Assembly: GCA_014898425.1 (NCBI GenBank)
Contig: RCSZ01000016.1
Location: 372,001 to 436,000 of the forward strand
Source: Botryotinia globosa
Lineage: Eukaryota > Ascomycota > Leotiomycetes > Helotiales > Sclerotiniaceae
Reading direction: 5' to 3'
DNA: 64,000 nt
The notes under the pieces are model-generated. The model was not told the origin of the DNA and made no database searches. It worked only from the letters and a program-made list of their open reading frames with translations. Shown piece after piece: positions 2,565 to 36,825 of this stretch; the first letter of the stretch is position 1; every line of letters begins with the position of its first letter. Both the position numbers and the translations under genes were made by a program.

Positions 2565-4157
2565 TCACAAGGAATATCTGTTCCATTCCTGCATCGTTTC
2601 TGGCCTATGTGTGTAACCGGTTTGTGGTTCACAAGGAGAGAACGAAGGGCTGGTTGGTGACTCAGAGGACTGGCCACTTCCTCTTTCGGACCCGAGAAAT
2701 CCATGTAAAGAAGAAGGGGATGCGGTGGCAGAATTTCCATTTGTTACCTAGAACAAGTCAGTTATTGCGGGATTACTTATCTTGAGTTATATGTGTGCTT
2801 ACAGTCATGTACTGCTGAGTCTCAAAACCCTGTGTCTGAACGGCAGGCATTCGAAATTGATCATGCGATTGATTAGATAGAGTGTCGGTTGCTAGAGGTG
2901 CCCACAAGTTTCTCTCTGGGAACAGCGGCGAGTGTGGTATATCAAGAACTGATATGTGATTGAAGGGATACAACTCCCAATCATGACATGTATGGCCCAT
3001 TTGCTGGAAAGAATAATTTGGCTGTTGGGTTCTTATGAGTTGAGATGACGGGAGAGATTGGCAATGGCTATGAAACTGTTGCACTTGATGCGTCAATGGA
3101 CCAATCATTCCCTGGCCCATGTGCTGGAAAGATGTCGCGTTTGGGGTTATCTCTCCCATTTGGCCCGTGTACTGGATAAAGTCTACACTCTGAGGCACTT
3201 CTTGTGCTTGGCCCACTTGCTGGAAAGAATCTGCCTCCTCAAACATCCAGCACTGGGTTGATTCATCATGATCCAACTGATATTCCTGATAGACTTCAGA
3301 AAGGCCTGATCCACTGTACTGAGCTTCACACTTTACCATGAATCCTTCCAGACTTCCAGAATATTTATTTCCCTTTCGTTTAGTTGGTTTCTTTTGAATG
3401 ACCTTAGGAGCTAGTGGTTTTGAATTGGCTTGTGTAACTCCTAATTTTCCAGCATGCTTCTTGTTGTGCTCTTCAATTATTTTGTCGATACTGTTCTTTT
3501 CTCTGCGACGAATAGAAGGTCTTGGTGCCATCAAAGAATGAGACAAGTCTACCCTGTGCTTAAATTCGTGTCTTGGTGCTATCATAGAATGGGACAAGTC
3601 TTCCCTGTGCCTGTGTTCATGTCTATTATCCTTATCTGACAATAAGGAGAATGACAAAGCAGAAGATCGTTCAGGCACAGCTGGTTGTCTTATGATGTTG
3701 GAGATTTTGTTGATGGAAGGCGACATTGTTGCATAAGTGGAATGATTTTGGTAATATTGTGATGGCATACCAGGAGAATCAACAAGAGAGCGTTGAGCCA
3801 AGGATAGTGATGTCTGCTTAAGATCATTAGTTTCTTGTAAGTTAATGGAGAGAAAGGGGTGCTATGTACTGTAGAACATTGACCATTCCCAACATTCTCA
3901 TTGAAGTTTGTGCCAACTGGCATTATCAATCGAGTTTGTGCCTCCTGATCTCTTCCTATTCTTGTAGATGAGGAATAAATGTTTTCAGAAGGCTGAGCTT
4001 CGAGGTGTACCATAGCAGTGTCCTCATATTCCTTAATCCTGTCTTCTTGAAGAACAATGGGACTTTCTTTGAGCAGGTCAAGGGACTCATCATCGTCGTT
4101 TGCTTCTAGCAGATCAAAGCACTGCCGTTCTCCCCAAATGTCCTCGAATAATGACAT
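2565..4157 (-). CDS. Hypothetical Gln/His-rich disordered protein
   Basis: Three exons: 4157-3870, 3813-2803 and 2747-2565, giving 493 aa. Intron 2 (2748-2802) has GTAAGC/CTAG borders. Intron 1 (3814-3869, GTACAT donor, CTAAT branch, CAG acceptor) is the least certain; without it the frame breaks in a run of Cs. Residues 1-95 are acidic (MSLFEDIWGE start). The middle has a duplicated basic segment (REDLSHSMIAPR / RVDLSHSLMAPR) and a Lys-rich stretch (KKPTKRKGNK) that could be a nuclear localisation signal. The second half is Gln/Met/His-rich with repeats such as SFQQVGQ, SFQHMGQ and SFQQMGH. The composition suggests a nuclear regulatory or scaffold protein, but no domain is recognised. The 3' exon is Ser/Pro-rich. 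Confidence 0.6.
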
Positions 4158-4976
4158 GATGATTTGATGAAATTTGAAAGTTGATAACAAAAGGATTTTT
4201 GAGGGAATGAAAGCAAAATTACTTTCGAAAGTGGTGGTCAATGAAGGTGGAACCAGAGCCGACTTAATCCACCAGTCAAACATTAATCAAATTTTCCTCT
4301 CTCAAAAATTAACGAAATTCACCTTTGTGGCAGTGATTAACGAGATATAATTGGAGGGTAGTTCATCTCATAATCATAGTTTTTTTTGTCTTTTTCTAAA
4401 CCAAAAAACATTCATTGATGTGGTGAGATTCTGTCACATATCCCACACATCAAGATTCGGAATATCCGTTTCACAAAAGAGTTCACTCAACACCTACTTG
4501 AAGTATGTTTCAACTCTTCAAAGAAATTATCCTACATTTAGGAAAGTGGAAAGTGGAAAGTGGAAAGAGCTCTAATAGAAGTCTTTAGAATTCTGTCTTT
4601 AGAATTCTGAATGCTCTGTTGGAGAACCCGTTTAATAGATTAACAGAAAGGTTGAACACATGAGTCAATCCTGAAGATAAAGATACTATTCAGAGAAAAA
4701 AGGCTAGAATAGTCGTAGCCATAGGTACATATTCATGTATTTTCTAGAACCTCTCATAAACAAATGAGAGAACACATTGTTGTATTATCTAACTGCCTTG
4801 GCAAAATCATCTCTAATTTGGTACACAAGTATTTCGAATGGATATTCGTTATATTGAGACCAGAACAGAACCCTCTCTGGTTCTCTTTATATTCTAAAAC
4901 GTCGCCATATACTCATAAATTCGTCAAACAGCCACCAAAACCTTAGAAATCCCACTAAATATCCTAAACCAGTATC
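4158..4976. other. Intergenic, no gene seen
   Basis: About 0.8 kb between two minus-strand genes. It has a short GTGGAAA triplication near 4547-4566 but no convincing reading frame. Confidence 0.5.
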
Positions 4977-6067
4977 CTACGCAGCTTTTTCTGCACATGA
5001 TATATAAGTCCAGCAGTGTCTCAATGGACTAGAAAAAGAAACAAATCGACCCGATTCCCGATATTTTTGATGTCGCAAAAGCTCTGTATCTCCTCTGGTC
5101 GGTCGTGCACCATTTATTTTAATACCGTTCATGTGTAAAAGTAAAACATCTTCGCTAGATGGGTATATAAATCTACCAGGTCCTCTGGGCATACGACGGC
5201 GTCTGCTCTCAGCTTTCTTGGCCAGGAAGCGTGTGACCCAGGTTCTGGATAGCTTCTTGCAAGAGCTCTTCTCTGATGCTGCTTTCGGGTTGGTTGAATT
5301 AGTCGGGCTAGCATCGTAGTTGTTTTCCTGATCCTCAAGTGATTGTAGTGGGTTGCTAAATAGATGTGCTGCAAACTGAGGTTCGTTCTCTTCTGAAACT
5401 CCTTCTGTCTGGTCATTTATGTACTCAAACATTCCCTCTCGAAGATTCTCGTCGTATAAGAAGTAATCATCGTCGCTCAATTCCTCTTCACAATCGAAAT
5501 ATTCCTCCCAGTCATCGTCTCCATCGTCTTCGACACCTTCATTTTCTTCATCAGAGTCTTTCAGAAAGGCGGCTTCTAGCTCAGACTGTTGATCCTTCGC
5601 CCCCGTATCTGCTGTTGACTCCATTTGATCAGCACTTTTGTCGTCGTCCTTTCTTTGACCACCAGTGAGAACTTGTTTAAGAGCATGTTGAAGAGCTTCA
5701 TAGTTGAATCTGTTGTACTTTTCTAGATTCCCCCATTGTCCAAGAACATTCGGCATTTGAGATGAGTGTGATTCAGCTGCTGGTTGTGGTGATTCTAGGG
5801 ACCATGAGACATGTGCTTGGCGTGGTAGTAGTGGTGACGTTGAGGTCAGGAAGTTTCTCGGCGATTGTGTTCTCTCAATCTAATGAATAATCAATTTTGA
5901 TCTCCACTATTGAATCATGCGGGAATTCTTTGTTTGCTTACCGAATTCAAAACTCGCGAAACACGCGCTTCTTCAATCATCTCATTCTCCTCATTCACGA
6001 TCAGTTGGTTGAGTTTTGCAATTTCTTTGTCAACCCACTCGGCATCCACTTCAGTATGATAAGACAT
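4977..6067 (-). CDS. SPLR-motif family protein (member a)
   Basis: Two exons: 6067-5942 and 5879-4977, with a 62-bp intron (GTAAGC...CATTAG, phase 0); 342 aa. The N-terminus begins MSYHTEVDAEW, with a short helical stretch of acidic residues. Residues about 130-200 are very acidic (runs of D/E). A basic segment follows: TWVTRF, then RRRRMPRG. The last 60 residues carry LLL....GIKI..A and then SSPLRHCWTYI, with 11 residues after it. The TWVTRF block recurs in the neighbour at 6589-7827, and the SPLR-C-W-T block in several other genes here. I do not recognise any named domain. An acidic region followed by a basic one suggests a nuclear or nucleic-acid-associated protein (inference). Confidence 0.65.
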
Positions 6068-6232
6068 ACTGGCCAAATATAATGCAAGATGAGTGATTGC
6101 GTTTTCTCTTAAATAGCTTGGTCAACCAGAAGATGGTATGGCGAAGCCAACGCTGTTTCTTGAACTTGAAAGTCAAGCAAATCGATTCTTATATCATTGA
6201 CATCAAATTAAGCAAATACTGAAGGCTGTCTT

Positions 6233-6425
6233 TTATGAGCAAGAAACGGTCTGAGAGATAAGTTGTGGAACTAGATATATAAAAAATCGATGCTCGCTGT
6301 ATGGCCTTATGAAATCACCTACGGCTTCCACGTATTGATAGCTTGAATAATATGTTTTGAAGAATTTGAACGCATCCCAGGTACCAGTAATTCTCCTCAA
6401 AGCTGATTGGCCTGGAGGAAGGTAG
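6233..6425 (-). pseudogene. Possible relic 3' exon of an SPLR-type gene
   Basis: Just after a good acceptor (CTTCCTCCAG), a minus-strand frame reads QSALRRITGTWDAF and continues for about 60 residues to a stop at 6233. The SALRR..TW string resembles the SxLRxCWT signature of the neighbouring genes, especially the longer tail of the 9087-9893 protein. No matching upstream exon is visible before 6588. It may be a relic or chance. Confidence 0.2.
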
Positions 6426-6588
6426 ACGATAATAGCCAATAACATCAAACGGTTGATTAATACAACTTATGGAACAAATCATGAGAAGCGTGATTCGCTG
6501 ATTGATTTAACTAACATCTAAGTTTGGAATGACATAACTCGCTGTATGCAAATGCGGAACTGATTATACAAATCATTAAGATTGTAAC

Positions 6589-7827
6589 TCAAACACCGAG
6601 ACACAAAGCTGCAGCGCGTACTGTACCCCAACGAGAAAACCACTGCCTATGATCACGCGCCCACGAACTTCCAAGGTCAGATACTGTATCTTGAATCTGC
6701 TTAAGATACGTCAAGCAATAACGCAGGTTAGAGCAACCCGGCTTGGGCTTCCTCGTCTTAGCGACTCTCAAATCTACTGCCATATGATCTAGTGGTTTCC
6801 AATCTGCTCTCCTCACATCCGCATACGATAGTTGTATCCCAAGGTTTTTGTATTCTAATCTTCTCAAGACACGCTTTCTAATGCTACTTTTGGGAGATTT
6901 CGTATCGTATCTTCGTCTTCGATGAGGGTTGACTGGCTTCTGAGAATCTTTGAAACGAGTCACCCAAGTTTTAGTGAGCTGACCGGATGTGAGCTCTTCA
7001 TTTCTAACTACACTTTCTAATGCCGTCTTTAATAGAAGAGGAAACGAGGCAACGTGACTTCCATCGGCTCTGCTGGTTTTGTCTGTAACATTTCCTCCGC
7101 CTCGAATCGTAGTATTTGCATGCTTCACTGGATTCGTGATTGCTTTCTACATTATCAGTTAGCTCGGGATTTTGTTCAAAACTCCAGGTTTCATGTAATC
7201 CGAACTGCAGTCAATATTCAGAAAGCAATCGGATGATGCTCTGGGTTCTTGGATCTTGACTTCATTCCAAGCAGGAAAGTGGATTCAGAGCTCCAAAGTC
7301 TCCAATCCTTCTGCCAGCCCAAACTGTTGAGGAATCTCGAAATACTTAAATGGAGTGCTTACTGAACTTTGCCGACCATCTTGATCACATATTGACTTTG
7401 CTGTATTGTCTTCTGCTAAGAAACCATTCGAATTTCTAGAATTTTCCGTTTTGGATGCATTATTTACCGTCGTCGGGCTTGCTGGCAATGCAAAGCGACA
7501 AAGCCTGTTATTATTGTCGTCGAACGCTAGGCCATTGTTTCGAGTGCTGCTAATCATCAACGGCAAGTTTTGATCGTCTGCCGTAACTCTCTCTTGCCGA
7601 CCAGCCTCATTGGCGCCAACAGACTCATTCGACACATTCGGTTCGTTGCTGGAAATTGAATTAGAACATCTCGGACGGAAGCAGCGAAACAACCTTAATT
7701 TCAGACGTCTCAACTTCACGAGAGGAGCCCACCATGGTGACGGTAATTCGCTTGGGCTGTGTGGGTTGGACAATGTGCGAGCTTCCTTGCGAGCACGGTG
7801 ACGTTGACTGAATCCATAACGCGTCAT
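6589..7827 (-). CDS. SPLR-motif family protein (member b)
   Basis: Three exons: 7827-7363, 7204-7129 and 7082-6589; introns 7205-7362 (GTAAGC...TGCAG) and 7083-7128 (GTGAAG...TTACAG, 46 bp); 344 aa. Read without introns, the locus shows a stop at 7285-7287 and looks like two genes; both introns are phase-consistent and remove the problem. The N-terminus is basic (MTRYGFSQRHRARKEAR, then a K/R-L-rich stretch) and the middle is Asn/Ser-rich. The third exon carries KTWVTRF, then HRRRRY as in the neighbour at 4977-6067. It continues with GIQLSYADVRRADW, and then CSNLRYCLTYL followed by 42 residues. The IQLSY..V..ADW block matches IQVSF..V..SDY in the protein at 20708-21715. Function unknown. Confidence 0.6.
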
Positions 7828-9086
7828 ATTTTACCAGATTGGTAGATTCTCGCTTTTCAGTTGCTCGTGAATAAAATGATTATCAAGCTGTATTCTTGTG
7901 GTCCCAAAATTGACATTAATTAATGATATAGATGAGATGATGTTGACATGGGTGACCAGAAATGCTTTGCTTGAGAATCCGAAATCTGTGCATAAAACTT
8001 CAGCTATCAAGCTTTCGGCAACGTCAATGGAAGGTTCTTGCTTTTTCTATATTCTGGTCCTCTGGAGATTATGCTCCTGCCGTGCCAATTCTCAGTCATT
8101 TGGGATGATTCGTCAACATAATGACGTAAATAACATCAAACCATTATTGATGAGCCGTAGTGAATAACATCCCGATGTGTTGTATGATATGCCCTCAGCA
8201 GCCAAGTATTGGATACGGTTTAATTTTGTGCTGTACAAAACTTCGTTATATTGGATCATCACGATATGCCTAGGTAATTTGGTTACCATGTAGTACAATA
8301 ATAAGCCTTACGATGTTATAACTACTAGGAGCTTTGATGTTGGCGATAAATGTAGATTTACAATAGACAAGCACTCCCACTTTGCTGCATGAATTCGTCA
8401 GCAAGATAACCTCATACGGCCCTTGAGGCCGTTGGCAGGATGTTGTGGGGCGCGAACTGATAGCACTTCTTCTAACTTCACTAGATAGTTGTAATAGATC
8501 GTTTAAACTTGATAACACCTTTTTACATTCCATGTTGTTACTATTTTAATATCTTCAGAATTCATCGAGAGCTTTACATGCTTACCATGCTGATCTGTAA
8601 TTTGGCATTTTCTCACGCATTTGATATCTTGGTCAAGTTGGTTTACTTTGCCCTCATCTCTGGGTATTCCGCTGGTCAAGCAAATGTCGCAATTTTCATG
8701 TCACCCTTTTCAAGTGTCATTGCAGGATGTGAGGGTGACATAGATGTTCGTGCATACGTAATATTACGAATTTTTTTTGGAGGAAATCACTCATTCCTAC
8801 AACGCCTTCCTTTCAAATCAGATTATACATGCTTCAATCAGTATAGGGTTTTGAGAGCAATTGCACCAATTTTTGGTTTGTTGGTAATTTGATCAGACTG
8901 CACATCGTCAGATAAGGGGATGGAAACATTAAGCGAGTTAAAGTGGGTCCATTAAGCTGTCATCCGACAAGTACAAAAACGACCTCCGAATACATGTGAA
9001 CGCTGATGAAAAACAATCAAATGAATCCCCCACCAAACATATGCCGTGTACGAACGAGATTTCCCATGACAATACTAGTATTCCAA
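7828..9086. other. Intergenic, no gene supported
   Basis: About 1.26 kb. A plus-strand frame near 7940-7960 happens to read LTWVTRN, echoing the TWVTRF block of the two neighbouring minus-strand genes, but nothing around it looks coding. A minus-strand frame at 8270-8533 and a plus-strand frame at 8509-8892 have no domain or splice support. Confidence 0.4.
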
Positions 9087-9893
9087 TTATGTTCTGAAAT
9101 CAACTTTTGTATCAACCCCAGCCTCCTCCGCGCCGTAATCATTCACAGCCACCAATGTATTCTCCAAATACTCGTCAAAGATATCATATGGAGTCCAGCA
9201 TTTTCGGAGAGATGATGGCATCTTCGAGATTCGTCGCCACCATATCCCCGGTAATTGTCTTAACGTTTCTTCTGCGGCCGTAAGACACGTATCATGCATG
9301 CGAACCTTTCTGGCGTTGATCCTGGTGGCGTAACGAGTTGGATCATCGAAAAATGACATTTCTGAGACTGATGGGCTGCCAGGACTAAGGGTGAACATTG
9401 GCAGAAGTTTCAAGACCGGTGTTGGGGGTGGCGAGTATGATGGTGGTGATGAAGGTGAGCGAAGAAGCAATGGCGCTACATCATCGGCAACCTTCAAAGG
9501 CTCTTCCATGTCCAAATCTTCCTCGTCACTATACTCGGACTGAGATGCTTCCTCATCTTCGGAGATGTTGTTGTGGTCTGATGAAGAAACAACGAAATCG
9601 TTGTCGCGAATGAATTCGGTGTCACGAACGGGATCTATGTTGCGAGTGGGATCGTTGTTGCGCATCAACTCGGAGATATCCATCAAATTGATACCCAAAG
9701 CATTTCCAAAAGCTCCTCTAATGCTTTGAAAATCATGCACTGTCTCTTCTGCCTGTCTGGGGTCCTCATTTGTATCCAAAACTTGATTGTCATTGGCAGC
9801 CTCGACTCCTGCTGTTTGTCCTTCAACATTTGATTGTTCAAGACATATTTCAAGGGACAGTTGTGGATCAATACTGGGGTTTTCGTGCGACAT
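9087..9893 (-). CDS. SPLR-motif family protein (member c)
   Basis: Single exon from ATG at 9893; 268 aa. The N-terminal 150 residues are acidic and low-complexity, with a degenerate R-N-N-D-P / R-D-N-D repeat around residues 78-100 and an acidic run near 110-130. A Ser/Pro-rich linker follows (SPSSPPSYSPPPTP). The C-terminal part is globular-looking: ARKVRMHDTCLTAAEETL, then MPSSLRKCWTPYDIFDEYL and 30 more residues. The SSLRKCWT string is the family signature. It has no signal peptide or membrane segment. Function unknown. Confidence 0.65.
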   Translation of the reverse strand: MSHENPSIDPQLSLEICLEQSNVEGQTAGVEAANDNQVLDTNEDPRQAEETVHDFQSIRGAFGNALGINLMDISELMRNNDPTRNIDPVRDTEFIRDNDFVVSSSDHNNISEDEEASQSEYSDEEDLDMEEPLKVADDVAPLLLRSPSSPPSYSPPPTPVLKLLPMFTLSPGSPSVSEMSFFDDPTRYATRINARKVRMHDTCLTAAEETLRQLPGIWWRRISKMPSSLRKCWTPYDIFDEYLENTLVAVNDYGAEEAGVDTKVDFRT

Positions 9894-10746
9894 GACTGAA
9901 AGGAAGGGATAGGCGCTGGTAAATTATCGGGCTTTATTTGCAAGAAGACTCAGTTTGCTGTCTTAACTCGAGGCATAAGACCACCAGGGTTTCTGTCAAA
10001 ATCATTAGTATAATTTGACGACGGTATAATTCGTGGGTAGTTTGTTCACCTTATGTTCACTGCACTTGTCTTCGAATTGATGGATTATGCGATTTCGAGG
10101 ATTCAGTAGAGTTTAAAAGAGAATGTTGAAAATATTGAGGGGTTTGTGCGAGAACCAACCTGTTTATTCAAAGAATCCTTGTTTGAAAGTGTAGTGAATA
10201 TTGAGAGGTAAAATTTTCATCCGCGAGTTATCTTGTGATGTTCCGAATTGGCGTGATTGAATCTTTCTTGTGATATCTAGGTAGTTAACAATATCATTGC
10301 TTTAGTTTTGTTTCTCAGAAAATAATACTAGAAGAGACACAGTGGAATCGATTTTATGGATTGATACTTGAGATAGCCTTTAGTATGTCTTGGAGGAGTT
10401 GAATAATTCACAGCAGTATTATTGATGATATTACCACAAAGACACCAGATTAATAAGAATTCACAGGAAATTTAAAAGTCAATACACTCTGTGATTGGAA
10501 GAAAGAGTGTTGAAGTGAAGTGAAGTTTATAATTCACAATTTCCTACTCTGCCAGCTTATCAAAAACAAGGTGAGGTATCCTAGAACGCAATTGCCATTT
10601 CATATCTGTGCTTTCCTCCACCACCCACACTTTCCTCCAAATTCTTATGCATCCGACATAGGTAGTTTTTGTAGAAACCGTCATCTTCTGATTTGTATCA
10701 TGTAGTCTATTCTCACACCAGGCATTGTTCTGAGCAACCTTTTATG
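9894..10746. other. Intergenic, no gene seen
   Basis: About 0.85 kb separating two minus-strand genes. No supported frame, RNA gene or repeat. Confidence 0.5.
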
Positions 10747-11244
10747 TCATAATAATTCATGTGACTTAGAATATTCTTGCGACCATCGAAGTGGGCTAAA
10801 CTTTCGACATCTGTATTTCAATGACTTCTCTGTTGCAGTGGCCAGACGAACGCTTATTGTGATCCCATGGCGTTGAAGCCTTCTATTGCGAGCAAGTAAA
10901 ACCTTGTGTACCCGACTGTTGTTCGAAAAGCGCGCTGCAAGCACTGGGACTGGTACTAGTAGTGATTCTCCACATTTTCTGGAAGTTGAAGATTTGGTTG
11001 GCGCCGGTGATAGTGGTAGTGGTGTTCTGTCGGGTGTGTTGGATGCGGAAGGCCAAATAATGTTTTCGTCGCACAAAGCTTCGATGGGGTTTTGATTTCG
11101 TATATTCTCCTTTAGCTTTTCTACGATGATACGGATTTCATCCTGCTCCGCGAAAAGCTCCACCTTGGTCGCATTGGTTTGATCCATTTTCGATTTCGAG
11201 TTCAAATGTGAGTCTGGCTTGTGATTTGGAAGTTTCTTCGACAT
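10747..11244 (-). CDS. Small basic SPLR-motif protein (member d)
   Basis: Single exon from ATG at 11244; 165 aa, pI clearly basic. Residues 25-55 are charged and probably helical (VELFAEQDEIRIIVEKLKEN). A Ser/Pro/Thr linker follows. The last 60 residues are Arg-rich: LLARNRRLQRHGITISV, then RCRKFSPLRWSQEYSKS with a short tail. It keeps the GI.I and SPLR elements of the family but not the Cys-Trp-Thr that usually follows, so it is a divergent member. Function unknown. Confidence 0.55.
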   Translation of the reverse strand: MSKKLPNHKPDSHLNSKSKMDQTNATKVELFAEQDEIRIIVEKLKENIRNQNPIEALCDENIIWPSASNTPDRTPLPLSPAPTKSSTSRKCGESLLVPVPVLAARFSNNSRVHKVLLARNRRLQRHGITISVRLATATEKSLKYRCRKFSPLRWSQEYSKSHELL

Positions 11245-11939
11245 TTCGTGGTAAAATGAAGTTTGTACCGGATTTGATCAATGAACTCTCTGCTGAAGAT
11301 TTTCTCAAAAAATGCCTCGCTTCTTATATGTCTATCATTGTTGGCTCTGTGATTAGCGCAGTCGCCTACAACAGGCTAGTCTTTCTAATTAATGGCCAAT
11401 CTGAAGCTAGTGAATAGTTCGGCTCTAGCTAGGACTACTTATTATGACCGTAATGTAGTTCATCTCTTACAAATACGAGAAAAGTTGATTCCATAGAGTT
11501 TCTAAGCTTGATTTGTGGTTCTCATCGTCTATTTGGGTGTTTCCAAATGCCATCGGTTAATTGTCATAATCGATGGGATATTGAACAAGCGTGAGAGCAC
11601 ACAGAACTCGATCCTTTTCTGTAAACTTACCACGGACTTCTCTTTCTTTGATACAGAACACATTGTCACACATTACGCAAGTCTATGATGTGGTGAGTTG
11701 AAGATATAAATTATGCGAACTGTCTTGAACTAAAAAAGGCTTCCCTTTAGATTTATTTAGCCCAACGTCCCCACGATAGCTTCTTCCAGAACTCGCTGTG
11801 ATCTCCGTCTCGCTGAAAACCCCGATAGTCTGATTATGTCATTACTTTTTGAATAATTTAGCTTCTGCCCAAGGTAAGAATGAGCGCTCAAACTCGAGTC
11901 CTGTGAGAATTGAATCTACTCAACCTTTTAACTTGATGC
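11245..11939. other. Intergenic, promoter side of the 10747-11244 gene
   Basis: About 0.7 kb up to the retrotransposon. A plus-strand frame at 11256-11417 (53 codons, one hydrophobic segment) lies head-to-head with the minus-strand gene, but it has no other support. Base composition is normal right up to the left LTR. Confidence 0.4.
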
Positions 11940-11944
11940 CCTCT
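11940..11944. repeat. Left target-site duplication CCTCT
   Basis: Five bases immediately outside the left LTR. They are identical to 17689-17693 outside the right LTR, as expected from LTR-retrotransposon integration. Confidence 0.85.
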
Positions 11945-12114
11945 TGTTGATATCAACTTGGTTGATATAAGTGTAAGTACTTAGTTCTATATGGTTATAT
12001 TTGTTTTTGATCATTATTAATTATAGGAAGCTAAATATTAAATATATAAAAAAATGTTAGTGTGATATTAATTAATATAATATTCTTTTTGATTATATAA
12101 TTGATATTTTGATA
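11945..12114. repeat. Left LTR, 170 bp
   Basis: It begins TGTTGATATC and aligns along its whole length, without gaps, to 17519-17688. Its outer (left) half keeps G and C; its inner half is nearly all A/T. Confidence 0.85.
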
Positions 12115-15100
12115 TTAATAATTTTTTAAAAATAAATGTAATTATATGTTTTAATTTATAATCTATTTTAGATATAATATTCTTTTAATTTTATTTGGTT
12201 TTTATATCACTATTCTTTTTCTATTTAATATATTATTTTAATAACTATTTTATTAATATTAATTAAATCTTTTAATATTTGATATATACTATTTTTAGTT
12301 ATAATATTTGTAGGGTTTGATTTTCTATTAATTTATTTAATTTCTATAATCTTTTTATTCTTATAATATTGTTTTAAAGCTATAATATCAATTAGAAACT
12401 GTTTTTCCGTATTTGTATTGAATTTAATTAATAGATTATATAGTAATTTTGAGTTTGTATAAAATATAAGTAATATTAGCTTTTTAGATTTAAAAATAAT
12501 ATTAATAATATTTTTAATAATAATTTCGATATCGAAATCTAGAATTAATATATATAATTTAAAAGTTAATATATTTTTAATAATTCTTTTATATTTAATT
12601 GATATTCAACATATAATATTAATATTATTGTATTTATTTATTAAATAGATTATATAGTTAATTTATAATAATAAATTAATATTATTAATAAATGATGTGT
12701 TAATAAAAATAATTAATTTAATAGAATCTATATTTAGAAATATAAATATAAATTCTTTTTTTGAATTATTTATTTGTTATTTGATGATTTTATTAAATTT
12801 ATTTATATTTTCTTTTTTTAGATCTATTATCTAAATAGTAATAGAAAAATGGTAAAATATTTTTAATTGATATATAATTATAATATATATTTTTTTTGTA
12901 TATTGAATAATATATTGATTCTTTAAAATAATATTTTTCTGAATTTTTCTTTTCATTCTATATATATCGATATTTCCAATTATAATTATTCTAATATTAT
13001 TATATTGTTTTTTTTAATTAAAATAGATTTTATTATTTTTAAAAATAATTAAATAATTATTAAATCTAAGTGAATAATTTTCTATAAATTATTTTTTATT
13101 TTTAGTTATAAAGTTAACTTTATTTAATTATTTTTATTTTAAATATATAAATCTTTTATTTATAATTATAAAAATATTATTGATTTGAAATTTTATAATA
13201 TTAATATTATTAATTAATTAAAATAGATAAAGATTATATATAAATTATATTATATTCAGTTTATTTTTATAGTGATTATAATAGATTTCAAATCAATAAT
13301 TTTCTATTTCAAGGATATTATATAAAGGTTTTATAATATATAGAATATATTTGTTTTCAAATCCAATCTTTTTTAATACTTTTATATAAATAGATTTATT
13401 CAAAATTATAATCGATTGAATATATATTTATATAATATTCTATAAATAGATTTGAATATATTTATTTGATATTTATAAAATAATATTAAATATAAGAATA
13501 ATATACTAATTGATATATTAAATAATAAATAATTATATTAAAACAATAATTTTATTTTTATTTTGATATACTTAAACTATTAATTATAATTTTATATATA
13601 TCTTGTTAATATTCTCTTTTTTTATTTCATTAATAAAATATAATTTGAAGAATTTCATTTTAAACAGAATATTATCTTTTGAAACAATTTTGAAAATTCT
13701 ATTTTCTATTAATCTATCAACTTTTTTATATTGTAATTCTATATATTTTATAAATATATTATCTTATAAGAATATAATCAATTGTAATAATTTCATAATA
13801 TATTCTTTATTAATATTTATCATATTGATTATTCTAATTAAATTGCTTTTTATATAATAATATAATTGTACATCTAATTACATTACTAATAATAATATTT
13901 AGGATTATAATATTTCTATATATAATATATCAACAATTATAATATCATTATTATTATTATTTATATAATCGTTTTTTAGTTTTATTCCTTTAAATTTTAT
14001 ATAAAAAGATTATATAAATATAAATCGAAATTTAGTTAATTTATTGAAAAATTCCACTTTATATATCTTTCTATTTATTCTAATCAGAATATACAATCTA
14101 ATCTATTTATCTAATATATTATTATCTTTTCCCTCTTTTTATATTAAAACTTTTGAATTCAATAATAAAATAAAAATAAATATTATAAACAATCCATTCC
14201 TTAATTTCAATATTTCTATAATTTATCTTTTAACTCAAATATAATATATTTTTGTTATAGCTTTTTTTATAGTTTTTGTATATTAAATGATTATTATAAT
14301 TAATAAATTAATATTACTTAATCTAAAATATATTTTATAAATTAGTAATATAAAAACAAATCTATTTAATCTTATTATATTATTTATAGTTTTTATTATT
14401 ATTTGAAGAATTATTATTTTAATTAGATTGTTATTTTCAAATTCTTTTATTAAAATCTTATATATATAATATAATAGATAATAATATTTTTCAATAATAT
14501 TTATAAAATTATATATTTCAATAAATATATTTTTGATAATAATTAATATAGATTTTATATTTTAAATAAATTCTTTATTTATAAAGTTTTTTTTAATATT
14601 ATAAATAATATAATCTAATAATTTAATATATATATTAATCTAATATTTCCTGAAATTATTGAATATATATTTAACAAAAATGTTTTCAAGAAATCAAATT
14701 ATTTAATAATATATTATTTCATTAATAATATATAAAACTGAATTATCTATAATATATATAATATCAATATAAATAATATAATTGAATTCAATATTTTCTA
14801 ATAAAATAAACCTGAAATATTCTAATAATTTGCTATATATTTGATAATGCTTATAATATTTAGTAAAATATTTAATAATATTATTACTCTCATTATAATT
14901 TATTTATTATAATATATTATAAAAACATTGTATCAATAAATAATCAAATTATTGATATAGATATTATAGTTTTATAATTATTAAATAATAATCATTCTAA
15001 TAAATCGATTTTTAAATAAATTGATTTATATTCATTTTTTATATTAAAAATATATACCCATATTTTCTAATAATAAAGTATTCATCCTTTGATATAATAA

Positions 15101-17518
15101 ACTAATTAATAATATTATTGTAAAACACTTTAAAACGATTTATATTTTTAAAATTTAATAGAAATAAAATATTAATATTTATAATATAAAAATCGATATC
15201 TCTAAATAATACAATAATTTGAAATAATTTTATTAATATCATAATCCTCTTTTCGAAATATATATTTATGGTTTTTATTATTAATAGATTGTATTCAATT
15301 AAGCAAATCTATTTTTATACATAATATTATTCAATTCTAATTATTGATTTTTTTATATATATTATATTAATATATATACCAAAGAATTCTTTACTCATAT
15401 AACTTACATAAAAAACATTTATTATATTTTTTATAAATAAAACTATTTCAATAAAGTTTTTAATTATTATATATAATATTATATTAAATAATAATTAATT
15501 AAATATTTCCTAATTATTAATAAACTCAAAATTCACAAAAAATATTTTATTTACATTATCTTCAATATCAAGATCTATAAAAAATAAATTCATTTCAATC
15601 TTTAAATCAAACTCTACATTAATAATCTTTCCTTTATATTCAATTATTTATTAATTATAATATTTATTAAATATATTATTATTATTATTTTTAATCTTCT
15701 TTTTATACTCATATTTATTCTTATCTTATTCCTTTTTAAAATGTTTTGTTAATTGATATCCTTCTTTTTTATATATTCAATAACAATTATATTAATTAAA
15801 AAAACCTGAATATTATTATTTATTATATAAATTGTTTCTAAAGTTATTATTATTTCTAAAATCCCTAAAATTACTCTAGTTATTGCTATAATTGTTATTA
15901 TTATAGAATTTTCTATTAATAAATAATATTATATCCCCTTTATCCTTATATAATCTCTCCTATATACTAATAGATTGTTACAATTGATTAATTAAATTAA
16001 ACATTTTTTTCTTAGAATTAAAATAAGCTAAATTGTATATCTTTATATTTTTGTAAATAAATATAAATTTATTATAAAAATAGAATATCTATTATATAAT
16101 AAAATCGAATCAATATTATAATATATATAATTATTTGATTATAATTATAAAACATTTATTAAACAATTTATTTCTATATTTCTTTTTGCTCGATTTCAAA
16201 ATAATATTATTCTATTTTAATAATATATTTCATTAATATTTATTTCCTTTAAAATTATTCTATATATAAATACAAAGTTTTTTGAATATCAATAATAATA
16301 AATTATAATTAATATAAAAGAATTGAAATATATTTTCTTTAAATATAATTGGAAATACTTTATAATATATATTTATAAATATTTTTGTATATTATAAGAT
16401 TTTATAAAATATCAAAAACTTAAAATCGAAATTGTTATTATTTCTATTATATTTCTTATTATTGATATAAAATTTCAATAAATTAATAAAAAATTATATA
16501 TTGAAATATAATATTAATATTTTATTTTTTCAGGATTTACAATCTTTATTATCTCTATTACTATTACTATCCTTATTATTAGAATCTCCTATATCTTTAT
16601 TTTTATTATATTCACTTCTATTGTTTTCATTTATATATTTGAAATCGTTTTTAATAAATTTATAAATAATTTTAGATTTGAATTTAGATTCTTTGATATT
16701 AATATTTTTTAAAGTTTTTTGAATTCATATTTTTATTTATTTATTAATAATAATCTTATAAAATTATTCGAATAAAATTATAAATACTTCAATATCTATT
16801 CTTAATAAATATATTCCTCAAATATATAATATTATATATAATTTTTATACATAAATCTAATAGATTTTCAGGAATTATATAATTATAAATATTCTGAAAT
16901 TATAATAAAAGATTTTTATCAAATTATTATTATTAATATCCTTATAATTGTATTATTTATATTTGAATTTGATATATTTAATAAACTTCTTATTATTAAT
17001 AATAATAACTTTTTTATCATCTAATATTACTTTTAATAAATTGAATTATTCCTCATACTTTTCCTCTTCCTTTTCCATATATATATTCTTATTAATAATA
17101 TTCTTAATAATTAAAATGATATTGCTTTCCAATATATTTGTATATATAAATAAAAGTATTTCAAAAGTTATTATAAATATATATATATTTATATATATAA
17201 AAAAATCTCTTACAAATATAAAAAATAATAAAAGTCTTTATTTTATCTAATACAATATACAATACAAAAATAAATATATAATAAATACAAAATCAATTTA
17301 TTACACTTAACAAAACCAAACTTTTTAAATATATCTTTCCAATACAATTATTCAAAGTATACTCTCTAACATTACAAAAAGAAATAATACACTATACCTA
17401 ATACAATAACATCTTCTCTATAATCTTTTCAGAATTTCTATCAATTCTAAATACTACATAAAAACACCTAATACTTTTAATAAAATCCAAAACCCTAATT
17501 TATAATATTATTAATTAA

Positions 17519-17688
17519 TATTAATATCAATTTAATTGATATAAATATAAATATTTAATTCTATATAATTATATTCGTTTTTAATTATTATTAACTATAA
17601 AAAGCTAGGTATTAAATATATAAGGAAGTACTAATGCAATGCTAATTAATATAGTGCCCTCTTTGATCATATAATCGATATCCCGACA
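17519..17688. repeat. Right LTR, 170 bp
   Basis: It aligns gap-free to 11945-12114. Its inner (left) half is mutated (starts TATTAATATC where the left copy has TGTTGATATC). Its outer end is well preserved (ends TATCCCGACA where the left copy has TATTTTGATA). Terminal TG...CA is reconstructed from the outer ends of the two copies. Confidence 0.85.
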
Positions 17689-17693
17689 CCTCT
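17689..17693. repeat. Right target-site duplication CCTCT
   Basis: A perfect copy of 11940-11944. Confidence 0.85.
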
Positions 17694-17702
17694 CGCCATT
17701 CC

Positions 17703-18134
17703 TCAAAAGTAAAACGGAGTCTGGGTATCCTCCAAATAGTTTCGAATACAGCCAAACTTCTTTCTCACAGGTCCACTGTCTTGCTCTCCCTTCTCTGGTG
17801 TCTCGGTACACCATTCACAGTAACAATCTTCAAATATTTGGGGACCTTGGCTCATGAGAAAACGACATCTGATCACCTCCTGACTAACTTCCTCCTTTGG
17901 GATAGAATAGTACCTGGCAGTATCAATTACAAGTTGCCACATAATGGCTTTTCGTGAAGTCCTCGAATAATCTTCATTTTCTCTATCTTCGAACGCCGCA
18001 TACTCTCTTGGGAGTTTCATTTCAAGCACATAACCGAATGAATTGGTCTTAGACTCGGATTCTTTAGCTGTAGCCATGTTCTCATCGGTAGTTTCAAATT
18101 TGGTTGAGAAAATTCTTCTCGTTTCGGTCGTCAT
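17703..18134 (-). CDS. Hypothetical protein beside the retrotransposon
   Basis: Single exon from ATG at 18134; 143 aa. The N-terminus is Thr/Glu-rich. A probable helical region follows, with IMWQLVIDTARYYSIPKEEV and a Cys cluster ECYCEWC-like (CYCEWC at about residue 105). The C-terminal 30 residues are basic, then end TPFYF. The stop codon lies only 10 bp from the target duplication of the LTR element, so the transcript's 3' end must lie inside or beside the element. No family recognised, and the SPLR signature is absent. Confidence 0.5.
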   Translation of the reverse strand: MTTETRRIFSTKFETTDENMATAKESESKTNSFGYVLEMKLPREYAAFEDRENEDYSRTSRKAIMWQLVIDTARYYSIPKEEVSQEVIRCRFLMSQGPQIFEDCYCEWCTETPEKGEQDSGPVRKKFGCIRNYLEDTQTPFYF

Positions 18135-19086
18135 TACTGCTTGCTAATAAGACTGATTCTTTATAACTTGGATATATGAAGCAATTAAGGATGTAATTGA
18201 GGTGATTATGAAAGTATTTTTGAAAGATATACGATTGAGAATACCCCCGAAAGCTCTTTTGAGTTAGTGTTGGAATTGAGCTACTATTTGGAATGCCCAG
18301 ACTTTTGATGGAGCTAATGAGTACTAGTTGCTGAGTTCTACTAATAACAGTTACTACAAACTTAATCTGACAATCACCCATGCAAAGATCCTTGTGACAT
18401 CTTGATTTCCAGCCCTGAATTTTGACTTTATCGCATTTGCATCTAATCATCAATTATTTTACTATTAATAAATCTTAGATTACAGATATATATCTATACA
18501 TTTGAGTAACTTCAGAGTCTTTCCATACACATGTACAAAGAAGCCTTGACAGTATGAAAATCTTTGATTTTTGTATTCAGTAATAATTAATAGACAAACT
18601 TGTGTCCCCATTATAGATTTATTCAAAATCTAGGATGTTACCAAAGATGATTTTGATTAAACGAGTTATAAGAATGGTGTGGAGAAGTTCCTCGAAGGTA
18701 GTTTACTTGACATTGTTTTAGTCTACTTTTTCACCATAGGCAATCATTAACTTACTTTCAGTTCACAAGGGCAGCAAATTATCCCTCAATTTTAGAAGTC
18801 TCACAGCTATGTTTCTCGGGTATTGATTCAATCTATTATTATTAATTATAAATTATCGCTTTCTGCTCTTTCGCCATATCCTAAAAGCTAAGTCGCTAAA
18901 TTAAGTTCCAGTCGCAGACACTGTTATATGCCACTCATATATTGGCTCAGGACTATGCGGATGGTTGAGGGAAACTCGTAGTCTAGGAACGAAGATATAG
19001 ACTTATAGCAACTAGTATAGTTTGGAGTGCCACATCTTGCTCCACAGTTCGAACTTACTTCGATTCTCGCGAAGTCGTCCGTATGT
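18135..19086. other. Intergenic, no gene supported
   Basis: About 0.95 kb. A Cys-rich minus-strand frame near 18350-18450 (RCKCDKVKIQGWKSRCHKD) has no continuation or splice sites that I can defend. Confidence 0.4.
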
Positions 19087-20048
19087 TTAGACTGCCTGCC
19101 AACTTCCCGGTCTAACAATATGTGGACGACGTGCTCTTTCAAATGGTCTGCAAGCAATCATGGATTTCCAGAGTCCCGATTGAGCCGCAATAACAGCCCG
19201 AGCCGTAGAGCCTGTCTTTTCAACTCCATTCAAGCCATGCATTGTGTTTGTATCCTCGATCTCGACAAATCCGGAGTCGCATCCACAAGAACACTCTTCT
19301 TTGCAAATTTGATTTGATGGAACCGCGGCTTGCTCATCGAACATTGACACTAAGCTATAACCAAGATCGGAATCAAAGTCACTGTCAGCGTCCTCTTCAT
19401 ATGTGCGCACGCCCGAATCTTGGATCGATTCCATCGCCATGTCGACTGTATCCCATTTGTAACTACCGGAACCTTTTTCTTTCTCAATGTTTTCTCCCTG
19501 CAAAATGCTGCAAGACTTTAAGCCATTGCCAGATTCTGCTTCACATGCGCCATTTTGCTGTAAAGGTCTTGAAAACCAATCATCGCAGAATTCAAGTGGT
19601 TCGTCACTCCCCTCGACTGTGCAGCCATCTTCCTCGTCTTCCCCAAACTTTCCAACTGCCTCATCAATCTCGACATGGTTCGCATTGTTCTCATAGTGAG
19701 AGATTCCTAAGATTGCGGCTCTGCGAGCAGCTCTGAGCTTTTCTTGTTTCTTCTTCTTTTCTTCCGCTGCAATAGCTCTTGCGCCTTCATGGGTATACTA
19801 TTTGTTGCGAGACTAGTTAGCATGTGATCGCGCATGATACCAAGCGGCTCTCTCATTTTTTCCTTGACGAATTGACTTACTGGACATGGTTTCACTGGTT
19901 CTGGGTATGACCAGAAATCGCGTTCTTCATCCGGATCCCCAAAATGTCTGAGTTCATTCTCCAAACCCCCAACAAGAACTGCGCCATCGTAGTCTGTATT
20001 TGTGACAGTGCGCCATCCAATAGCGCGCAGGATCTGAGGTGAGAACAT
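19087..20048 (-). CDS. Hypothetical protein with Lys-rich helix and Cys cluster
   Basis: Two exons: 20048-19881 and 19797-19087; intron 19798-19880 (GTAAGT...AAATAG, phase 0); 292 aa. The start MFSPQILRAIGWRTVTNTDYDGA is preferred over an upstream in-frame ATG at 20186, because the region between is Ser/Lys-rich and untypical. Exon 1 has an ordered-looking GLENELRHFGDPDEERDFW stretch. Exon 2 begins with a charged helix (AIAAEEKKKKQEKLRAARRA), followed by acidic low-complexity sequence and a CKEECSCGCDSG cluster near residue 210. The tail is Arg-rich. The helix resembles chromatin- or RNA-binding coiled regions only in composition. No family recognised. Confidence 0.6.
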
Positions 20049-20707
20049 TGTAATGGTAAATTTCTTTTGTGAGTGCGATTTGTTTCTGTTTTGTTTGCGC
20101 TCGAAGTTTTGTAGATAGCAAGTGAGAATGGATGGCTTTCTAGATTTATTCGAGGGCAGGAAGGTAGCTGATATAGATAGAGACATTTCGTACGTTCAAG
20201 TTGATGACCTTGATACATTGGTAAAATACCGTAAGAGCCGCAAAAACTGTAGAAAACGTAAAAACCGTAATCGTATATTAATTTCCAGCTCTTAGTCTAT
20301 CGAATTGGAAAACAGTGAATTAAGATCACTACCGTACGTGAAATATCATTGAAGTCAATCTGCCGTAGTTCAAGTAAGTTGAGAAAAAATGGCAAAAATG
20401 GCAACAATCACTATCAACAAGGAAGGAACGGATAATAATATGAATTTCTCAAATTGCAGAATATCTCAATAATCCTAAAACTAAAACTATATTCATCTTC
20501 ACTTAAGATCCTAACTTCACCACCCTATTGCTATGTCTCTGTCTTAATATTTCCCAATTCCAATTCCAATTCCAAGAAACTTGAAAATTGGTCATTTTAC
20601 TTCATCAGGGATACTTAACTAGAATTCATCTCTAACTCCTGCCGTGAAAATTATTGCACCAGATAAGGAAAGGCCCCTCGTCACATACAACGATTCTTCT
20701 AAACAGC
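20049..20707. other. Intergenic, no gene seen
   Basis: About 0.66 kb between minus-strand genes, AT-rich, with no supported feature. Confidence 0.5.
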
Positions 20708-21715
20708 CTAGATATAGCATCTAGATCCCTCCTCACGAATGACTGTCTGACAGTGTCTTAAATTTGATGGAGTCCAGCCCCAAGTTGTTGGTTCCTATGA
20801 AGTCAGAATGTCAGCACTGCATACGGTGACGAGGCTTTAGATGAAATCATGGGAACAGGCTATTATTATAAGATAATTTAAGGTGATTCAACCCTGAATC
20901 AAGTGTACGAAACCATGAAACATGCAGACTTACAGAATTACGATAGAACACTCTTGTAGGATGAGCTTCATAGTCACTAGCCTTTACTGCCGTGAAGGAT
21001 ACTTGAATGCAAACCACGTCTTTTCCCATTAGCGGGTGATCAATTCGAACATCTTCTTCAACCTCCTCGAGCTCAGAATGATAACTATAAGTTGAATCAC
21101 TATCCCAAGCGTCGAAGCCACCAAATTCAGGGACGCTTTGAGCCGACTCGACTCCCAAATCACAATCGTCCATTACAATAGGGGTATCGCCTTGCCAGTT
21201 ATCAAGAGTACGCTCGGTGACTGTTGTAATTTGATTATTATCTTTATCCTTGGATTCTTCGATTTCAGGAATGGAGTCGAGGAATGTATTTGCATATGAG
21301 GATTGGCCAGAGTAGGGTACTGCCTTAGGAATTCTGGATGTCATGTTTGTGCCTAGCTTTCTGTTCTTGGGAGAAATGGTCTCTTCAGGAACGGTGATTA
21401 CAGCAGCGCTGTCTTCATTCGACAATGTCTCGACTTTCAATGCATAGTCGTAAGAGTCGATGGTATATTCGTCGTCAGAGAAATCAAGAGTCTGGAGTGG
21501 TTAACATTAAAAGTGTATTCGAATAGTTTGTGAATCATTTATACCTCATAGTCTCTGAAATCAGATGCTTCTCCCATAACCATATCACTATCGAATTTAG
21601 ATGTATCAACAAAGTTTCTAGTAGGTGGAGCATCGATGCATTGCTCTTCGAATTCGTCGTTGGCTTCGTCGGCCCAGGATTTGGTCATTGGTGGTAATAA
21701 GTTCGCTAAAGGCAT
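20708..21715 (-). CDS. SPLR-motif family protein (member e)
   Basis: Three exons: 21715-21545, 21491-20934 and 20794-20708; introns of 53 bp (GTATAA...CTCCAG) and 139 bp (GTAAGT...TCATAG), both phase 0; 271 aa. The N-terminal two thirds are acidic and disordered (DSDSTYSYHSELEEVEEDV). Then comes an ordered segment KDVVCIQVSFTAVKASDYEA, which aligns with GIQLSYADVRRADW of the 6589-7827 protein. The small last exon adds WTPSNLRHCQTVI and ends 12 residues later. The last exon was found because the second exon ends at a perfect GTAAGT. Function unknown. Confidence 0.65.
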
Positions 21716-22519
21716 AGGTGGAGAAATATTATTTTGTGAGTTAAAGGTAGCGAGCGGGTGTATATATCTGAGATAGATATAGTGGTAGAATTCTCGATAT
21801 AGATCGTTGATCTACTAATTTCTGTGTTAATAATAAGTCGTTGTAATTATTAGTTGTTTTAAAGGAGAGAGTCAGTGGCCTGATATTCGTTTTTAAAAGT
21901 GTTTGATTTGGGGGAAAACCCTGATTTGTAGTGAATTGATTTATGTGTATTTAGAATTTGATTCACGGAATGAGAAGCTCGAATATATATGAGCGGATGA
22001 GAGTGGCACACTAATAACATTTAGTAGTACTATCTGTATCTCGAAAAACTTTAGTGATGAAGTAGCCGTATATCTACCGCTTATTGGTAAGCAATGTATG
22101 CTACGAGATCATATAAAGCAAATAAGCACAATTATGTAATGGATTTGGGTAGCAGTAGTCATGATGTAGTGTCAAGGAGTGTTTTGAACATTAAAATATT
22201 GAAGTTTACACATCAATGATGGTACTTACACGGCTATGGATGCGACAATCCTCTAAATTCACGAGGTACGGTCTTTTGAATCAGGCAAATCTTCACTGCG
22301 GCTCAGAAACCAAATGGAGAACGTATGGACTTAATTTCGCTATCTAGTCAAGGTGACCTGGGATACGTCGTTGAATGTGATAGAATCACTGGTACCCATA
22401 CTGTGCATGATAACCGTACATCCACATCTGAAATACCATTCATGCATCCGATATAACTATCAAAGCATCTTCATCGGCGGTCTTGTGAATTCCCCCATCC
22501 TCTCTCCTTCCTGTCTTTC
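21716..22519. other. Intergenic, no gene seen
   Basis: About 0.8 kb, promoter side of the gene at 20708-21715. No supported feature. Confidence 0.45.
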
Positions 22520-23060
22520 CTACGCGAACATGACTTGTCTCAATGGACTCTGTTTCTTGACTCTCAACGGAGTCTCGCTCTTAACTCTCCACTCTTCACC
22601 ACCTGGCCACAATAATGCTTCTCGCAACTTAGCCTCCTTAGCCTACTACTCTGTCAATATCTTGTATGGCTATTCTCAGTCGTAAGACTCTCACCTCTTC
22701 TGTTTCTTCTTTCATTGCCATGTTCAATTTCTTGTAGAATGTAAGACCGGATTGGCTCGTTCCACAACCAGCTTTTCCATTGGTATCCGTTTGAAGTTTT
22801 GTCGTATCCTTGAGAGAATCGTCGAGGTTACTTTTGTCGCTCGTACGGTCTGACGATTTGCCCGCGGCAGCCTACGAATTCGTGGTTTAGTGTTTTTGCT
22901 TCATCATGATTGTAACGTCTTCTTAAACTATCATGGGAACTGGGGAAAGAAAGATGACAGGCGGAGGGAAAGACGCAAAGTTCAAGTAACTTACTGCCTC
23001 GTTGGTATCATCTACCCTATCGAAAGTCATCTTCGCTTTTTTATTTTCGCTGCTGGTCAT
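22520..23060 (-). CDS. Small SPLR-ending protein (member f)
   Basis: Three exons: 23060-22995, 22871-22695 and 22642-22520; introns 22872-22994 (GTAAGT...TCGTAG) and 22643-22694 (GTGAGA...TAGTAG), both phase 0; 121 aa. The start MTSSENKKAKMTF resembles MTSVENQ of the gene at 24002-24301. The middle is Ser/Asp/Thr/Lys-rich, with one TFYKKLNMAMKEE helix. The last exon reads LREALLWPGGEEW and ends KKQSPLRQVMFA. The SPLR comes six residues before the end and is not followed by Cys-Trp-Thr, so family membership is tentative. Each exon is too short to stand out on its own, but the splice sites are strong. Confidence 0.55.
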
Positions 23061-24001
23061 TGTGTATTGACGAATGTAAAATCACGTTTGAGAATAATTT
23101 TGCAGTGGAATACCTATGGTATTTAAAGGAAATGGGAAACAAAAAGCTAATACACCTCACATTTTAGTTTGGAGTACTAAAACTTGGCCAGATGCCACTG
23201 ATATCACCAATGATTCGGTTATTGAAGCTTTCAAGGGGCTAGACACTCTTAGTGGGGAAATATATTTTCGCTTATCACCTAGTATACGTACCAAGAAGTC
23301 TAGTGTCGTGCCTATGGAATTGATCTTGTCTGGAATCAATGAAAGACATAACATACTATGGAATTCTCATCATCAATTTGCTGGTCACCAGGTGCCACTT
23401 GCCCCTACTATAATCTAAAAGCTCTAGGGGACCACGTGAGTCTCAGGTCTAGGTCGATCTCAAAAAGCTCACTTACACAAGGAATTGTTAAGCACCTCAA
23501 AACCAGTGCACCTGAATCCATGCAACATATCTGAATAATACTTACGAGAACCAATTGAATGACATTATAGATGAAGAAAAGCTATAATTTCCAGTAATGA
23601 TTGTTGATGTGGGAAGTGACAGACCCTCGATGAAACGAAAAACTACTGCTCAATTTCTGCAGCGATAAATTGTGATCGAACTTTTGAAGAATTCTGAATT
23701 TACTAAAGCCATTGGACATATATAATAAACATAGCTAGGAAATTCATGGTATGCCCTCTACTTCTCTCGCAGAATATCGAATTCCATCTGCACACACATC
23801 AAGCACAGCACAATCATGAACTAGCCAAAAAGAAAGTACGAAGCTTTGAATGCTTCTCAAATTGCGCAATATTTACCACCTATACCAACCTATGCGTTGC
23901 TATATCCCAACCACCTCACCAATCTCCCACCTGTAATCCTCAATATTCATCTCCAACCAGATCGCCGAATCCGCCTTATCCCCAAGAGTCCCCCAGCAAT
24001 C
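23061..24001. other. Intergenic, no gene supported
   Basis: About 0.94 kb. A plus-strand frame at 23116-23418 and a Pro/His-rich plus-strand frame at 23846-24163 (antisense to the next gene) are judged chance frames. Confidence 0.4.
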
Positions 24002-24301
24002 TCAATCACTACCCTCTCCTTCATCCTCACCTATCTTACTGCCCTCCTCAACCAGAGTCCAACATTTTCTCAAAGGGCTCGGATTCGCACAATGAAAGTT
24101 TCCATATTTTCCATCCGCTTCCGTTTGCTCCGCTTCCGTGCTCTTGATACCATACACAATTAAGAGAAGCTCATCCTTTCGTTTCTCCTTTCGTTTCTTT
24201 ACTCTCTTCTGCCTAGCTTTGTCGCGGGCTGATAGTTTTATTGTTTCTGATGTCGACTCGTCATTCTCCATCATAATTGATTGATTCTCAACCGAAGTCA
24301 T
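24002..24301 (-). CDS. Small SPLR-motif family protein (member g)
   Basis: Single exon from ATG at 24301; 99 aa. The N-terminus MTSVENQ is followed by an acidic Ser/Thr stretch and then a strongly basic helix (ARDKARQKRVKKRKEKRK, a likely nuclear/nucleolar signal). After that comes ELLLIVYGIKSTEAEQTEAD, which lines up with VLLLHMNGIKING.A..T..D of the 4977-6067 protein. The signature NPSPLRKCWTLVEEG follows, with a Glu/Gly tail. It is the shortest complete family member here and may show the minimal domain. Confidence 0.6.
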   Translation of the reverse strand: MTSVENQSIMMENDESTSETIKLSARDKARQKRVKKRKEKRKDELLLIVYGIKSTEAEQTEADGKYGNFHCANPSPLRKCWTLVEEGSKIGEDEGEGSD

Positions 24302-36640: not shown

Positions 36641-36825
36641 ATGTATGGTATGTATGGTATGTATGGTATGTATGGTATGTATGGTATGTATGGTATGTAT
36701 GGTATGTATGGTATGTATGGTATGTATGGTATGTATGGTATGTATGGTATGTATGGTATGTATAATGTCTATGGTATATATAATGTCTATGGTATATATA
36801 ACGTCTATGGTATATATAATATGGT
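36641..36825. repeat. 9-bp tandem array (ATGTATGGT)n with degenerate tail
   Basis: About 13.5 perfect copies from 36641 to 36762. Three 18-bp derived units (with GTCTATGGTATATATAA-like sequence) continue to about 36825. Because 9 is a multiple of 3, both strands are open over the array (Met-Tyr-Gly or Tyr-His-Thr repeats), but I do not believe it is translated. Confidence 0.92.

Follow-up and report, generated by a model that had tools for sequence, protein, structure and literature searches.

The DNA analysed here, which we call the window, is a stretch of 64,000 nucleotides from the fungus Botryotinia (Botrytis) globosa (contig C16, RCSZ01000016.1, positions 372,001 to 436,000 of the forward strand), whose genome assembly comprises 45,684,854 bases in 27 contigs. 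The window holds a cluster of genes that are neighbours on one strand, the minus strand, and that we number g1 to g9 (Table 1). A first-pass annotation had singled out g1 to g7 because their predicted proteins end in related strings, and had proposed that all seven share an undescribed, possibly lineage-specific C-terminal domain. We find that the module and the family are real, undescribed and lineage-restricted, and that five of the seven genes are confirmed. Judged from their sequences, g1, g2, g3, g5 and g7 very probably constitute one family, united by a homologous C-terminal module.

The cluster genes and their tails

All seven C-terminal strings are found on the minus strand at the places where the first-pass annotation had put them. 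Our two-exon model of g1 agrees with the public protein EAF00_010687 at 100% identity (342 residues).

Table 1. Cluster genes and tail modules in the window
Feature	Position	Strand	Description
g1	4977..6067	-	Two exons, 342 residues, EAF00_010687
g1 module	5001..5147	-	Residues 287-335: VLLLHMNGIKINGARPTRGD...SSPLRHCWTYI
g2	6589..7827	-	325 residues in public model EAF00_010688
g2 module	6703..6843	-	Residues 242-288: LGIQLSYADVRRAD...CSNLRYCLTYL
g3	9087..9893	-	One exon, 268 residues; 23 related proteins aligned
g3 module	9186..9332	-	Residues 188-236: YATRINARKVRMHD...PSSLRKCWTPY
g4	10747..11244	-	165 residues; marginal member; 8 related proteins
g4 possible degenerate module	10783..10866	-	GITISVRLATATE...FSPLRW; kept in 8 related proteins; membership unproved
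g5	20708..21715	-	Three exons, 271 residues; 13 related proteins aligned
g5 module	20738..21017	-	VVCIQVSFTAVKASD...PSNLRHCQTVI; split by intron 20795-20933
g6	22520..23060	-	Three predicted exons; ends KQSPLRQVMFA; membership unsupported
g7	24002..24301	-	One exon, 99 residues; 11 related proteins aligned
g7 module	24050..24169	-	Residues 45-84: LLLIVYGIKSTEAEQTEAD...PSPLRKCWTLV
g9	17703..18134	-	Without tail; cluster neighbour between g4 and g5
g8	about 19087..20048	-	Without tail; cluster neighbour between g4 and g5; approximate model

In g1, g2, g3, g5 and g7 the module is bipartite and 40-49 residues long, consisting of a 13-residue GI...D element, a linker of variable length and the string S-x-L-R-x-C-[WLQ]-T. 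The upstream part had been described loosely, as a hydrophobic/GI or IQ-S element at a similar distance; it is present, and sharper than claimed, since the residues fall into one 13-residue register: GIKINGARPTRGD in g1, GIQLSYADVRRAD in g2, ATRINARKVRMHD in g3, CIQVSFTAVKASD in g5, GIKSTEAEQTEAD in g7 and GITISVRLATATE in g4. The final residue of this register is D in the five genes and E in g4. The intron of g5 falls between the two parts of the module.

The proposal that the N-termini are unrelated breaks down for g1 and g2. About 40 residues upstream of the GI element, both carry [KR]-[TN]-W-[VI]-[ST]-R-F followed by an arginine-rich sequence, and because these are common to both, the two genes are related beyond the tail. 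In g3 there is a proline stretch, which reads P-P-S-Y-x-P-P-x-T-P in most of the 23 proteins related to it.

The stretch shared by g1 and g2 could also be taken as the remnant, together with the arginine-rich sequence that follows it, of a pogo/Tc5-type (CENP-B-like) transposase DNA-binding domain, which would make the cluster a domesticated regulator family. Protein P0008 has a weak match to the Pfam family HTH_Tnp_Tc5 (PF03221; expectation value, E, 0.019) at residues 488-507, around W-V-T-R-F, and the family is listed for 2 of the 12 members of the g1 group. True Tc5-type domains in this genome (L042 and L043) have a comparable W-x-x-[RK]-F at their end, and basic stretches follow the W-[VI]-[ST]-R-F motif, so that g1 and g2 resemble them in having this pattern and then basic residues. 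The match to P0008, however, scores 15.4 bits against a cut-off of 22.2 and covers just positions 40-59 of 66, the last third of the domain; none of the three g2 tails matches the family, and the stretch is missing from g3, g5 and g7. We regard a transposase origin as improbable.

Within each of the five groups of related proteins, the module is better conserved than the rest of the protein. With gaps set aside, identity to the reference averages, within the module and in the rest of the protein respectively, 0.82 and 0.69 for g1, 0.72 and 0.60 for g2, 0.83 and 0.60 for g3, 0.82 and 0.72 for g5, and 0.85 and 0.65 for g7, and the S-x-L-R-x-C-x-T core reaches 0.90-0.99 in the five groups on the same basis.

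Statistical support for one family

The tails find one another in profile searches. When a profile of the g1-group tails (12 proteins) was run against 1,987 six-frame open reading frames (ORFs) of the window, with E-values corrected for all of them, g1 came first, followed by g2 (E 2e-4) and g7 (E 5.5e-4); g5, through its last exon, ranked fourth (E 0.92) and g3 11th (E 4.4). Leave-one-out searches used a larger set of 6,502 ORFs, made up of the window with flanks of 50 kb on the left and 20 kb on the right, plus 130 kb from 13 other contigs. Here the tail left out was the top non-member for g1 (E 0.019), g2 (E 0.84) and g7 (E 1.2e-4), and the third-ranked non-member for g3 (E 0.60) and g5 (E 0.85).

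We also compared the tail alignments with hhalign in 21 pairs, using 100 column permutations per pair; these figures carry some selection, the tails having been picked after the motif had been spotted. Among the pairs formed by g1, g2, g3, g5 and g7, 8 of 10 beat all 100 permutations, the weaker ones being g2-g3, whose score was reached by 3 of 100 permutations, and g2-g7 (2 of 100). Mutual similarity is strongest for g1-g2, g1-g7 and g3-g7, and weaker for g5 as well as for the g2-g3 and g2-g7 pairs.

A search of the whole genome for the LRxCWT pattern at the DNA level gave 12 matches, 3 of which are g1, g3 and g7, against 10 for a reversed control, and we reject a genome-wide expansion of the motif. 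The ORFs surrounding the other nine matches, judged by eye, bear no resemblance to the family. Looking for extra copies of g1, g2, g3, g5 and g7 in the genome returned their own places only, save for one g3 match at E 0.48, in a search too insensitive to pick up paralogs that have diverged this far.

These results bear on the simplest objection, namely that short strings chosen by eye resemble each other by chance. The core is indeed short, g4 and g6 lie at or near noise, and the leave-one-out E-values of g2, g3 and g5 exceed 0.5. Against this, the corrected E-values from the g1-group profile are still 2e-4 and 5.5e-4, the left-out tails rank first or third, the core is conserved inside each ortholog group, and LRxCWT in such a context is limited to the cluster. 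Chance, already disfavoured for the five genes, is a very unlikely account of the resemblance as a whole, although it stands for g6.

The proposal of a tail shared by seven genes is thus upheld by profiles, leave-one-out searches and hhalign for g1, g2, g3, g5 and g7, is marginal for g4 and is unsupported for g6. In hhalign, the pair g7-g4 beats all 100 permutations, while the scores of g4 with the other four core tails are reached by 18-70 of 100; the g4-g6 score is reached by 1 of 100, and g4 ranks 254 in the leave-one-out search. Its membership is therefore only weakly supported by sequence comparison. For g6, represented by a single sequence, none of six hhalign pairs beats all permutations (8-79 of 100 reach the score in the five pairs with core tails), and the gene lies outside the 12 best ORFs in the leave-one-out search, so these comparisons do not support its membership. 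Within g6, a 24-nt tandem duplication at 22538-22589 doubles the [ST]PLR string (TPLR and SPLR).

Distribution and gene order

The three protein searches gave 12, 46 and 25 rows, of which two turned up twice; a name is lacking in 1, 6 and 4 of these rows, 11 of 83, and the g7 of the window itself is one of them. All named homologs come from Botrytis/Botryotinia, Sclerotinia, Stromatinia, Monilinia or Ciborinia. Botryotinia is placed in the Sclerotiniaceae, and the other four genera also belong to this family. The suggestion that the module is lineage-specific is borne out to this extent, in that it is undescribed and its named homologs are confined to these five groups. Relatives of g3 occur in all five, those of g5 in Botrytis/Botryotinia, Sclerotinia and Stromatinia, those of g2 in Botrytis/Botryotinia and Stromatinia, and those of g1 in Botrytis/Botryotinia and Ciborinia; named relatives of g4 and g7 are from Botrytis/Botryotinia only.

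Gene order in other species was read from locus tags only. On this basis, several Botrytis species follow one common order for the cluster. In B. porri, g1, g2, g3, g4, g5 and g7 correspond to EAF01_008416, 8415, 8414, 8413, 8410 and 8408; in B. calthae, g1, g2, g3, g4 and g7 are BOTCAL_0031g00100, 110, 120, 130 and 180; in B. byssoidea, g1, g2, g4 and g7 are EAE97_006280, 6279, 6277 and 6272; and in B. aclada, g1, g2, g3, g5 and g7 are EAE96_001480, 1481, 1482, 1486 and 1487. B. sinoallii has EAF02_007405 (g2) and 7412 (g7). The Stromatinia tags EAF04_004981, 4979 and 4975 correspond to g2, g3 and g5, and S. nivalis has OCU04_001246 (g3) and 1250 (g5). The free numbers in these series would fit g9, g8 and g6. 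An exception to the order is B. convoluta, with its g7 entry on the contig series BCON_0018 and g3 and g5 on BCON_0041.

The cluster in B. globosa contains an island of about 5.6 kb between g4 and g9 (12000-17600) with a G+C content of 10-18%. In B. fragariae, a single gene model (P0045) combines g9 and g4, and this fusion suggests that the island is absent there. As for traces of duplication in the DNA, there are just repeats of 19-22 nt, indistinguishable from chance; one is a 19-nt near-repeat located 3' of both g5 (20446-20464) and g7 (23854-23872), which may be a trace of duplication or fortuitous.

Several features lie around the cluster. To the left of g1, same-strand ORFs at 2773-4286 contain a 22-nt unit that recurs at spacings of 48 and 120 and have no Pfam match, and a 167-residue ORF at 827-1330 on the minus strand is made of 2.2 copies of a 138-bp tandem repeat. 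From their translations, we take the genes of the left flank (L022, 429-7564) to encode a PEX6-like AAA protein and a lipase-like protein. The flanks yielded no further family members, the weak matches in L022 falling in other frames of the lipase-like gene. To the right, dense short tandem repeats occupy 36641-37723 (ATGTATGGT in 17.7 copies and about 21 copies of TTTATGGTAA-like units), and plus-strand ORFs at 38453-42960 presumably belong to a PDR-type ABC transporter, which they resemble.

Known domains, predicted structure and location

The first-pass annotation knew of no named domain with this pattern, and Pfam agrees. No family scored above its cut-off in scans of 10 single proteins and of the sequences in the alignments for g1 (12 members), g2 (3), g3 (24) and g5 (13). 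Profile searches of the PDB with the g1, g7, g3 and g5 groups gave nothing below E 0.38. Neither outcome that the first-pass annotation had named as fatal to its proposal occurred: there are significant profile matches among the tails, and no match to a described domain emerged. Literature searches by gene names and prefixes and by motif strings found no paper on these genes or the tail. Members and relatives of the family, such as BCIN_02g03730 (g3 group), BCIN_02g03740 (g2 group) and EAF00_010687 (g1), are uncharacterized Sclerotiniaceae proteins deposited as hypothetical, under names that, as far as seen, do not link them.

One of the subthreshold PDB alignments deserves consideration, since the g1 profile aligns with the ribosomal protein eL24 along the whole module (E 0.76-0.99). 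If the tail were a diverged L24e-like element (eL24/RLP24; Pfam Ribosomal_L24e, PF01246), the proteins would act on ribosomes or their assembly, and hhalign of the L24e set against g1 does beat 100 of 100 permutations. The likeness is nevertheless confined to g1: for g2, g3, g4, g5, g6 and g7, the score is attained by 28-67 of 100 permutations. The g1 match (E 0.76 at best) was moreover chosen after a database search whose top match, at E 0.38, was an unrelated helicase, and Ribosomal_L24e is listed for none of the scanned proteins. A ribosomal origin thus seems extremely improbable.

Structure prediction gives no backing to the word 'domain' if it is taken to mean a fold. AlphaFold2 gave a mean predicted local distance difference test (pLDDT) score of 39.5 for g1 (12 sequences) and 41.0 for g3 (24 sequences); from these shallow alignments, the tails of both lack a confident structure, and in g1 only an N-terminal helix gets to about 70. 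Net charge before the last 110 residues is -41 for g1, -28 for g3 and -21 for g5, while g2 and g4 are not strongly negative. By hydropathy, the one property used here, g1-g7 show neither a hydrophobic stretch within their first 35 residues nor a membrane-like stretch anywhere. Taken together, the low AlphaFold2 confidence, the hydropathy and the charge figures suggest that the proteins are intracellular, disordered and apparently non-secreted. In g1, g2 and g7 there are basic clusters ahead of the module, and on their account we would guess at a nuclear location.

As these are plant-associated fungi and the proteins are lineage-restricted and fast-evolving, one might instead think of effectors exported by an unconventional route, with the tail as a sorting or host-binding signal. 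The lack of a hydrophobic N-terminus in g1-g7 (by hydropathy, with no signal-peptide predictor used) and an ordinary gene order, conserved across the family, both speak against this, and we consider such effectors unlikely.

A putative docking tail on a probable old tandem family

We are left with an old tandem family of disordered proteins with a common docking tail as the best explanation, a combined statement to which we give close to an even chance. The five genes would be products of a tandem duplication older than the radiation of the Sclerotiniaceae, and most sequence beyond the module would by now have diverged too far to be recognized. Their products would be intrinsically disordered proteins that stay inside the cell, perhaps in the nucleus; several are strongly acidic. 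The tail, GI-x-x-[NS]...D and then S-x-L-R-x-C-x-T, would serve as a bipartite docking motif, through which proteins with differing bodies, acidic or rich in proline, are recruited to a single shared protein or complex.

The docking role itself, with its putative partner, is a tentative reading of the sequences, which we favour because a shared partner would be the simplest reason for disordered, rapidly changing proteins to retain a short conserved end. Short linear docking motifs occur in just this setting, as a short conserved stretch on proteins of this kind; the tail described here differs in having two parts and, at 40-49 residues, in being longer than usual. In its most specific form, the explanation holds that an undescribed protein-interaction module first appeared in an ancestor of the Sclerotiniaceae and then spread by multiplication through a collinear set of disordered regulators, all of which report to a single conserved partner; this form we consider rather doubtful.

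Several observations weigh against a conserved tail on a family of disordered proteins. The profile of the three g2 sequences matches g1 just at E 3, which is not significant. Among the segments compared along each protein, the module ranks high in conservation and never at the top (25 of 294 for g1, 37 of 279 for g2, 11 of 220 for g3, 12 of 225 for g5 and 6 of 60 for g7). Two B. cinerea entries of the g1 group (P0009 and P0011) end before or inside the core, and the g2 entries P0065 and P0067 have no tail; these four may be model errors or real losses. Finally, what looks like disorder, predicted from 12 and 24 aligned sequences, may reflect a prediction that failed.

Genes without known relatives usually stay 'hypothetical' one by one. 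In this cluster, at least five neighbouring genes turn out to form a single old family, recognized by a tail of 40-49 residues, a clear example of paralogs left unconnected by annotation after nearly everything but the tail had diverged. The fungi that carry them are an important plant-associated group, and the shared tail, which supplies a single bait with a single partner to expect, offers a way into the role of a conserved and lineage-restricted gene cluster.

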